Source: a virus | Length of the DNA stretch: 50,823 nt | IMG/VR virus record: IMGVR_UViG_3300031925_000001 | Location: 1 to 50,823 of that record | Direction: 5' to 3' (one strand) | In this document: one piece after another, positions 15,751 to 37,723 of the stretch | How the letters are laid out: the number at the start of each line of letters is the position of its first letter | How positions within the stretch are numbered: the first letter of the stretch is position 1 | Notes under the pieces: generated by a model | Seen by the model: the letters and a program-made list of their open reading frames with translations, nothing else | What the model was told of the DNA's origin: nothing | Database searches by the model: none | Translations under genes and position numbers: made by a program

Positions 15751-15837
15751 TGGCCGAGGGTATGGGATTCGAACCCATACATCCTTTCGGACGTCGCATT
15801 AGCAGTGCGATACATTAAACCACTCTGTCAACCCTCT
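15751..15837 (-). tRNA. tRNA-Ser (anticodon GCT)
   Basis: The minus strand folds as a tRNA with the anticodon loop CTGCTAA on a GC-rich stem, an extended variable arm (CGTCCGAAAGGATG), a T arm GGGTTCGAATCCC, and an encoded CCA. The long variable arm is diagnostic for serine. It reads AGC/AGT codons. The 1-72 pair is A-G, a mismatch that would need editing or tolerance. The gene lies between the Ser-TGA tRNA and the coiled-coil gene on the late transcript. Confidence 0.88.
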
Positions 15838-15842
15838 ATAAC

Positions 15843-15941
15843 TGGCGGAAGAACAGGGATTCGAACCCTGACGTCATATCGCTATAACCTTCGGTTTTCA
15901 AGACCGCTGCCGCTACCCAGAATCTCTCGGCTTATCCTTCC
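15843..15941 (-). tRNA. tRNA-Ser (anticodon TGA)
   Basis: The minus strand gives acceptor GGAAGGA/TTCTTCC (one G-T pair), D stem GCCG/CGGC with a large loop, anticodon loop CTTGAAA (TGA), a long variable arm with a hairpin, a T arm GGGTTCGAATCCC, and encoded CCA. The long variable arm confirms serine. At 99 nt it is longer than usual, because both D loop and variable arm are enlarged. It reads TCA codons. Confidence 0.85.
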
Positions 15942-15948
15942 TTAAATT

Positions 15949-16023
15949 TGGTACTTCTGGTTGGATTCGAACCAACGTCTTTCGGTTATCAGCCGAATGT
16001 AAGAGCCTCTCTACCACAGAAGT
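15949..16023 (-). tRNA. tRNA-Ile (anticodon GAT)
   Basis: The minus strand folds as a complete 75-nt cloverleaf: acceptor ACTTCTG/CAGAAGT, anticodon stem TTCGG/CCGAA with loop CTGATAA (GAT), T arm GTTGG-TTCGAAT-CCAAC, discriminator A and encoded CCA. GAT reads ATC/ATT isoleucine codons. It is the first of three tRNAs just downstream of the strong promoter at 16100-16128. Confidence 0.92.
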
Positions 16024-16607: not shown

Positions 16608-17340
16608 GTACTAAATTAAGAAATATACTAAAAATACTTAAATACTACAGTTTTCCTCCCCCAAAATTTTAGCATCAAGCCTTACACAACATAGGGTTAA
16701 GGGCATAGTGTAACCTTCAGGGGTAGTTTAAGTAAAAGTCCCCCTCCGGTATATGGAAGCAACGTATGCCCTATCGCAGGAAACAAAAATGGGGTATGGG
16801 GGGTGATATATAGGGGAGAAATTGCATAGGTATATATACATACTGGATAAAACTACAGGTGTATATTTTTACATAGGTGTGAGTGTGCATAGGGGAAGGT
16901 TTATTTAAGGTGTTTATGGCATAGTAATTGCATAGTATTAATCTATTACTGTACATCTAACCAGTATTCAACCAGTTGTTATCCTAACGGTATCACATAA
17001 CGGGTATCAGTTAACGGTATGTGCCGGCAGGCACTTAAGAACACTACGTGTTCATGGGGTAGGGTATTAATTGCTATACATAGTCTATAGCATAGCTAGG
17101 CTAAGAAATATCATCTATAAGTCATTGATTAATAAGTATAAATAAAAATAATTAAAATAAATTCAAATAAAAGCTTGCAATAATAAACGGGTAGTAATAG
17201 TATTTAGTCATCGGCAAGGGAAACCAAGCCACTAACTAGAAAGATTAATTAATATCTTGACAGTTAGAAGATAAGGCATTAAGCTTTATCACATGTGCTA
17301 ACAAGCACTTAATGGCAATCATGCCAATGTTCTTTAACAA
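16608..17340. other. Non-coding divergent region with GCATAG-type repeats (possible origin)
   Basis: No convincing gene is seen in this stretch. It holds six copies of GCATAG (16703, 16824, 16887, 16919, 16930, 17090) and at least three ACATAG variants (near 16689, 16871 and 17079), all on the + strand. A G-rich stretch occurs at 16791-16816 (GGGGTATGGGGGG), with AT-rich segments near 17100-17180. Hairpins include GTGCT-AACA-AGCAC and TGGCA-ATCA-TGCCA at about 17297-17332. Spaced direct repeats next to AT-rich DNA between divergent arms resemble iteron-type replication origins. This is inference from pattern only. Confidence 0.4.
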
Positions 17341-17356
17341 TTAGTATTTACTTTGA

Positions 17357-17386
17357 TTGGATTGCTAAACAATGTGCTCATATAAT
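17357..17386 (+). promoter_or_regulatory. Early promoter P1
   Basis: TTGGAT (17357-17362) and TATAAT (17381-17386) are separated by 18 bp. It is the first of three rightward promoters. The -10 is perfect and the -35 weaker than in the promoter at 17613. Confidence 0.5.
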
Positions 17387-17476
17387 CCATAGCAGTTATG
17401 GAAGCTATCACTGGTAAGTCATCAATAAGCCTTTATTAAGGTGGCAAAGAAAATTAAAATAAATACTAAATTGTTA

Positions 17477-17506
17477 TTGACAACTAAAACCTAGTTAGAT
17501 TAAACT
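17477..17506 (+). promoter_or_regulatory. Early promoter P2
   Basis: A perfect TTGACA (17477-17482) is followed after 18 bp by TAAACT (17501-17506), a weaker -10 box. It is preceded by TTAT, as at the next promoter, and followed by AGCTAGGCAA, similar to TTAGGCAA after the third promoter, suggesting tandem duplication of a promoter unit. Confidence 0.5.
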
Positions 17507-17612
17507 AGCTAGGCAAGTCAGGGATAACGCAGTGATGCGGCGTCTAAGTAGCAAGTCATAAGCGTACGAAATTATGACACTGACAAAATTTAAAAATAAC
17601 GATAAAAAGTTA

Positions 17613-17640
17613 TTGACAATTAGAAACGAATCATTATAAT
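17613..17640 (+). promoter_or_regulatory. Strong early promoter P3
   Basis: TTGACA (17613-17618) and TATAAT (17635-17640) are both perfect consensus boxes with a 16-bp spacer. Transcription would start near 17647, giving a leader of about 360 nt before the first rightward gene at 18011. This is probably the main host-polymerase entry point for the early arm. Confidence 0.85.
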
Positions 17641-17646
17641 GGTTCA

Positions 17647-18010
17647 CAAGTTAGGCAATTATTGGAGGATAAGCCAATGTAGTAATTAACAGTTAGACGG
17701 GCGATTGTGCCTAGACTGGAGTCTAAAGCCTCGCATTAATCAATACACTGATGCGGTTGGTGGAGGATAAAGGTAAAACAATACAGGTTGAGCGACCGTG
17801 CTACTGTATAGTGCAAATACGCTGGGGGCGCTGAGGCTATGCCCTAGAGAGAAGATAGCCGAGCGGTTGGCATCGTCCACGGTAATGCAGTGGGAACAAG
17901 CCGGATAAGTCCATATTAAACCTAGTAGATAAAGTGGCTAGGATATAGATGGGAAGCTTATCCCTCATACATGCTATGAGTATATTTATTCATGTGGAGT
18001 ATCTATACCA
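17647..18010 (+). ncRNA. Hairpin-rich early leader RNA
   Basis: The long leader after P3 contains many self-complementary segments. They include ATTGG/CCAAT, TTAGAC/GTCTAA, CGCAT/ATGCG, ATACAG/CTGTAT, GGCTAT/ATAGCC (17835-17860), and GGATAAG/CTTATCC (17903-17963) enclosing CCTAG/CTAGG. It also has a ribosome site GGAGG (17664) with ATG-TAG 8 nt later, and a second GGAGGATAA (17762). No long reading frame is present. A structured regulatory or processed RNA, or an RNA-based early control element, is plausible. No known RNA family is recognised. Confidence 0.5.
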
Positions 18011-18217
18011 ATGGCACGTAAGAAAAATCATTTAAAACGTATCGCTAAGAAGTTCCGAAATGCTACAGCTAATCAGCAATTTATCAGAACTGAAAGCTAC
18101 GACTCACAAAAAGGTTTTGGTAAAATCGTGCGTGATAAGAAGTCGCATGAATACAAAACAGTTCAATCAACCAAAGGTAAACAAAAAGTTTACAGAACAT
18201 CTAAACCGTTAATTTGA
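18011..18217 (+). CDS. Small basic early protein
   Basis: This 68-residue protein is strongly Lys/Arg-rich (KKNHLKRIAKKFRN near the start; KSHEYKTVQSTKGKQKVYR near the end), with no Cys and no membrane segment. Such composition fits nucleic-acid or ribosome binding. As the first gene after the early promoters it may act in host takeover. GGAG lies 11 bases before the ATG, so initiation may depend on leader structure. No family is recognised. Confidence 0.75.
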   Translation: MARKKNHLKRIAKKFRNATANQQFIRTESYDSQKGFGKIVRDKKSHEYKTVQSTKGKQKVYRTSKPLI

Positions 18218-37693: not shown

Positions 37694-37723
37694 CCCTCCC
37701 TGAAATATGGGAGGGATTTTTTG
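37694..37723 (+). terminator. Intrinsic terminator after SSB
   Basis: CCCTCCC (37694-37700) and GGGAGGG (37709-37715) form a perfect 7-bp GC-rich stem with an 8-base loop, followed by ATTTTTTG. It follows the SSB stop by seven bases, so downstream nucleotide-metabolism genes need read-through or another promoter. Confidence 0.93.

Follow-up and report, generated by a model that had tools for sequence, protein, structure and literature searches.

Introduction

The put RNA of phage HK022 binds the beta' zinc-binding domain of host RNA polymerase and suppresses termination, and boxA has a role in Nus-factor antitermination. HK022 put is about 70 nt long, lies just downstream of the early promoters and acts over 10 kb; according to its description, it consists of a pair of stem-loops and is present twice per genome, as putL and putR (PMC9378689). 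EAR of the Bacillus subtilis eps operon and canT of Tn916 are cis-acting structured RNAs with which the polymerase is terminator-resistant over long operons (PMC11658703). The phikmvviruses possess strong sigma70-like promoters, host RNA polymerase reads their early and middle genes, and the phage RNA polymerase gene directly precedes the structural genes (PMC7552054). Here, we describe a conserved 74-nt RNA element in the untranslated early leader of a Vibrio phage relative, which is shared by many phiKMV-type podophages.

Results

Promoters and leader of the early operon

The window, that is, the whole stretch of DNA analyzed (50,823 nt), is a ~50.8 kb relative of the Vibrio podophages VPp1, KIT05 and IME271. 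A long intergenic stretch precedes its rightward early operon, which opens at ATG 18011, and the rightward gene run spans ~27 kb. The features of the promoter and leader region are as follows:

17358..17386, + strand: weak third promoter candidate, recognized by eye (-35 box 3/6, -10 box 6/6)
17477..17506, + strand: sigma70 promoter, TTGACA-18-TAAACT (10/12 match; TTGACA aligned in all relatives)
17613..17640, + strand: main sigma70 promoter, TTGACA-16-TATAAT (12/12 match in the promoter scan)
17647..18010, + strand: untranslated early leader (presumed start ~7 nt past the -10 box)
17903..17963, + strand: group-specific stem GGATAAG/CTTATCC around CCTAG/CTAGG (sequence comparison)
18011..18217, + strand: first early gene, 68 aa, PHROG 33973, function unknown

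An earlier note on this sequence had described a triple early promoter. The TTGACA boxes of the two good sigma70 promoters were found again in the relatives, and the annotation of VPp1 places promoters at both corresponding positions. At the first of the three proposed sites, the promoter scan detected no acceptable promoter. This candidate possesses a perfect -10 TATAAT at 17381, but its -35 box matches at only three of six positions and its -10 box is altered in several relatives (TATAAC, CATAAT). Thus, two of the promoters stand and the "triple" is doubtful.

Two observations were made outside the operon. The window carries tRNA-Ser(GCT) and tRNA-Ile(GAT) genes at 15751-16023 on the - strand; in VPp1, tRNA-Trp and tRNA-Pro occupy the equivalent position. 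Furthermore, stretches 94-96% identical to the left half of the window phage occur in two much larger phage records, MT135025 (V07, 349 kb) and MT135024 (V05, 157 kb), which are possibly assembly chimeras.

The leader runs for ~365 nt from the main promoter to ATG 18011 without any gene, and no terminator-like site was found inside it up to gene 1. Its predicted folding energy was no better than that of shuffled sequences (z -0.5), and the same was true of the 74-nt element (z -0.1). Since the leader folds no better than its shuffles, the hairpins that the earlier note had seen by eye are, taken alone, no evidence of structure. The nested stem named there is present in the sequence, with outer arms at 17903-17909/17957-17963 and inner CCTAG/CTAGG arms at 17921-17925/17938-17942. 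In WD615 and VpJYP1, two pairs of the outer stem are changed in a compensatory manner (GGGTAAA/TTTACCC), and the inner stem shows no variation among the relatives. The claim of a structured leader is borne out by a different region: the strongest structural signal is the covarying element at 17822-17895, which was missing from that description.

Architecture and covariation of the element

The element consists of the following parts:

17822..17895, + strand: conserved 74-nt RNA element, pseudoknot and two hairpins (covariance model E 2.9e-17)
17825..17845, + strand: P1, 17825-17829/17841-17845 (5/5 pairs covary)
17835..17860, + strand: P2, pseudoknot helix, GGCUAU 17835-17840/AUAGCC 17855-17860 (6/6 pairs covary)
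17864..17875, + strand: P3, CGGU 17864-17867/AUCG 17872-17875 (both counted pairs covary)
17877..17893, + strand: P4, CCAC 17877-17880/GUGG 17890-17893, with the conserved loop GGUAAUGCA

In the alignment, the order is P1 (GGGC...GCCC), P2, GAG, P3 and P4. The loop of P1 opens with a conserved GCUGA (17830-17834), and the remainder of the loop pairs beyond a purine-rich linker, which P2 spans; P1 and P2 together make up an H-type pseudoknot. GAG (17861-17863) comes directly after P2, and the consensus of the P4 loop is GGUNRUGCA.

Across the 25 diverse phages aligned, standard pairs occupy 99.5% of the pair cells, compared with 72% after shuffling, and the covariation score is 0.72, compared with 0.18 for shuffled alignments and <=0.13 for slid structures. 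All pairs of the P1/P2 pseudoknot covary (11/11); in P2, 100% of the cells are paired, and all six positions vary across the sequences. The sequence of P4 is nearly invariant. Compensated changes in its stem were found in the phiAS7-like locus L158, WD615/VpJYP1, Buco and locus L355, and the stem variants are CCCC/GGGG, UCUC/GAGA, ACCC/GGGU and UCCC/GGGA. The earlier note had proposed covariation among related phages as a check on its structured leader. Covarying pairs are present among the homologues, with two-sided changes in 15 of the 17 pairs, and the proposal withstood this check. The comparison gives strong support for a functional structured RNA in the leader.

Two further hairpins were observed near the element. 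In Phikmvvirus-type elements (L558, L559, L383), the P4 loop carries an extra small hairpin on its 3' side. A second, putative hairpin (e.g., GUACC...GGUAC, AUACC...GGUAU) lies ~60-150 nt upstream of the element in L003, L007, L008, L012 and L377; in the leaders of Drulisvirus, Bucovirus and Corkvirinae, it seems to covary.

The topology, with a hairpin loop that engages in a pseudoknot over a purine-rich linker, may resemble that of the pistol ribozyme. This topology would suit a self-cleaving ribozyme, but the leader gave no match to a ribozyme or any other family in Rfam 15, either at the gathering score or at E up to 5. We regard self-cleavage as very improbable.

Distribution among phages

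The first homologue search, a sensitive blastn with the leader alone, returned the Vibrio relatives and about 60 further phages, whose hosts include Klebsiella, Pectobacterium and Aeromonas. The matches sit in the early leaders of Autographiviridae (Slopekvirinae, Corkvirinae, Melnykvirinae and Youngvirus); in a few records, an annotated small ORF crosses the element. When other members served as queries, Bucovirus, Stompvirus, Pokrovskaiavirus, Wanjuvirus and the Pseudomonas phages MR7 and SeaP3 were recovered as well. Relaxed-pattern searches gave many matches by chance, which were removed with a pairing filter.

A covariance model, R1, was built from P2, P3 and P4, with P1 left out. With R1, phiKMV and LUZ19, neither of which is in the training set, were found to carry the element (E about 1e-8 to 1e-7), as were SeaP3, fHe-Yen3-01 and the metagenomic contig L022, all of which are also outside that set. 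The covariance-model finds further include Drulisvirus, Phimunavirus, Ahphunavirus, Youngvirus and the window's own group. P1 is absent from R1, yet it forms in the homologues that R1 found and in others found later. Thus, P1 provides an independent confirmation of the structure. Together, the carriers infect Vibrio, Klebsiella, Pectobacterium, Aeromonas, Yersinia and Pseudomonas. The earlier note had considered such a leader unusual in small phages; this was wrong, since many phiKMV-type podophages have the element in their early leaders.

By model search, the window genome contains a single copy of the element, and the element was not found in the T7 genome. Among IMG/VR genomes retrieved by polymerase, the element was detected with R1 or R2 in 18 of the 44 with a phiKMV-type polymerase, and in none of the 41 retrieved with T7 RNA polymerase, where the positive control was found. 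The difference (Fisher p 1e-6) is overstated, because the phages are related and because most of the training sequences of the models came from phiKMV-type phages. The other 26 phiKMV-type genomes may lack the element or carry a diverged form. Weak model matches in T7-like genomes (E about 0.1) were rejected; L568, L569 and L570 were inspected, and none of them showed the element.

Host sequences were searched as well. Mimicry of a host RNA was rejected, as the pseudoknot was present in 0 of the 92 bacterial P4-pattern matches. R2 gave no match in 295 host-order genomes, a search of reduced sensitivity without a positive control, and blastn of the Drulisvirus element against E. coli genomes and plasmids also gave none.

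Judged from the aligned sequences, the element is a new RNA family, defined by the P1/P2 pseudoknot, GAG, P3 and the P4 loop GGUNRUGCA, and the window conforms to this definition. An earlier description was not found in Rfam or in the open-access papers searched.

Genomic setting of the element

At nearly all of the 32 loci, the element is preceded by near-consensus sigma70 promoters, which are often arranged in tandem, and followed by the first early ORF. The gap between the element and this ORF is about 53-413 nt in the loci examined, and the first gene differs between lineages. In WD615 and VpJYP1 (L016, L017), an additional 52-aa ORF separates the element from the usual first early gene. 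Thus, the element tracks the promoter rather than the gene. These data bear on the idea that the element is a riboswitch, or a binding site for an early phage protein, that controls the first early gene. The leader position would suit such translational control, but the variable gap and the changing first gene disfavor it, and no terminator platform was seen; we give it a poor chance.

Phage-type promoters are annotated downstream of the element in LUZ19 (3130) and SU552A (1459), the two records that mark such promoters. Therefore, the element is transcribed by the host polymerase. Within the transcript, it is placed roughly 40-330 nt from the 5' end. A role in mRNA stability or processing, in which the pseudoknot would guard the 5' part of this long mRNA against host RNases or set the place of a processing cut, agrees with a compact pseudoknot within a long untranslated 5' leader and with the varying distance to the first gene. 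However, the element is not at the 5' end itself, and the conserved P4 loop and GCUGA/GAG suggest a specific recognition. We consider this role rather unlikely.

A terminator-ended small RNA was rejected, because there is no terminator ahead of gene 1. The lack of a terminator between the element and gene 1 also speaks against a separate RNA, released from the leader, that would act in trans or as a decoy by binding a host RNA or protein, e.g., a defence or regulatory factor. This explanation would account for the independence from the downstream gene and for the conservation across phages of all six host genera, but in the loci examined the element stands in cis before the early operon. It is, in our estimate, unlikely.

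In the named carriers that possess an RNA polymerase gene, ~16-19 kb separate this gene from the element upstream; the T7 RNA polymerase gene begins at 3.2 kb, counted from the left end. A T7-type RNA polymerase is not encoded by the window, VPp1 or KIT05. Strong intrinsic terminators are almost absent from the first ~19 kb downstream of the element in the window group and the phiKMV-type phages, and one was located beyond this region in the window:

37694..37715, + strand: intrinsic terminator ~20 kb beyond the element, within the rightward gene run

A terminator also occurs in VPp1 at a similar distance; its stem differs in sequence, and its tail is likewise ATTTTTTG.

boxA sequences in the leaders

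A boxA-like sequence is present upstream of the element in the window:

17328..17339, + strand: boxA-like TGTTCTTTAACA (consensus CGCTCTTTAACA), one mismatch, upstream of both good promoters

At the aligned place, WD615 and VpJYP1 have ATGCTCTTTAAYAA. Consensus boxA was found on the same strand, within ~1 kb upstream of the element, in 10 of the 34 carriers, the window among them, and a reversed boxA control pattern gave 0 matches in 61 genomes. In T7 (L385), consensus boxA lies at 812-823, between the host promoter A3 and gene 0.3, and it is also present in many T7-like leaders without the element. Thus, boxA marks the leader class and not the element itself.

Discussion

The position of the element, its independence from the downstream gene, its dependence on host promoters, its association with boxA and its distribution lead us to prefer a role in the processivity of the host polymerase. 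We give even chances to the proposal that it acts in cis, as an RNA, and alters the host RNA polymerase so that early transcription extends over long distances, with a put-like action and a different build. We infer the host polymerase to be the target, and antitermination or anti-pausing to be the effect. The earlier note had listed an antitermination element, a processed RNA and a host-factor decoy as possible functions; the first fits best with the position, host promoters, distribution and boxA, and the other two keep the lower probabilities given above.

In the proposed mechanism, host RNA polymerase would initiate at the upstream sigma70 promoters and transcribe the element, and the nascent early transcript would fold into the H-type pseudoknot and then the two hairpins. 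The folded RNA, in which the conserved GCUGA/GAG near the pseudoknot and the P4 loop are the probable contacts, may bind either the elongation complex or a host factor of the Nus type. The bound complex would then resist pausing and termination and cross the ~18-27 kb early and middle region.

The strong covariation, including that of the pseudoknot, and the contrast in distribution are consistent with antitermination, although the contrast between T7-like and phiKMV-type phages is confounded by phylogeny and the architecture is unlike that of put. HK022 put, EAR and canT are precedents for an RNA with such an effect. Since strong intrinsic terminators are few in the first ~19 kb downstream, no target terminator is evident, and Rho-dependent termination or pausing would be needed as the main target. 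A broader proposal is that the element represents a class of phage RNA antiterminators that is undescribed and widespread, has a pseudoknot at its core and reprogrammes host RNA polymerase early in the infection of phiKMV-type and other podophages; its chances seem to us to fall a little short of even. If true, it would explain how a phage polymerase gene ~18 kb away comes within reach of the host polymerase.

The phiKMV, LUZ19 and KP34-like phages are model phages and candidate therapy phages. How the host polymerase crosses ~16-20 kb before the phage polymerase exists can now be tested with a defined 74-nt element. As an antiterminator, the element would bring a new, pseudoknotted architecture into the small set of known RNA-only antiterminators, and would be a compact part to keep the host polymerase processive on long operons.

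Among the known systems, HK022 put resembles the element in its length of about 70 nt, its position downstream of host early promoters and before the early genes, and the proposed action in cis on the host polymerase over a long distance, with no phage protein implied. In contrast, put, as known by its description, consists of two stem-loops, whereas the element is composed of a pseudoknot and two hairpins; put has one copy per divergent early operon, whereas the window has a single copy of the element. Thus, on the features tested (pseudoknot and single copy), the element is not a member of the put family. Nus-dependent boxA leaders, such as those of rrn and lambda nut, share with it the boxA found upstream in part of the carriers; however, boxA is a linear site, and most carriers are without a strict boxA. 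EAR is located in a cellular operon and canT is 452 nt long, and neither is a phage early leader.
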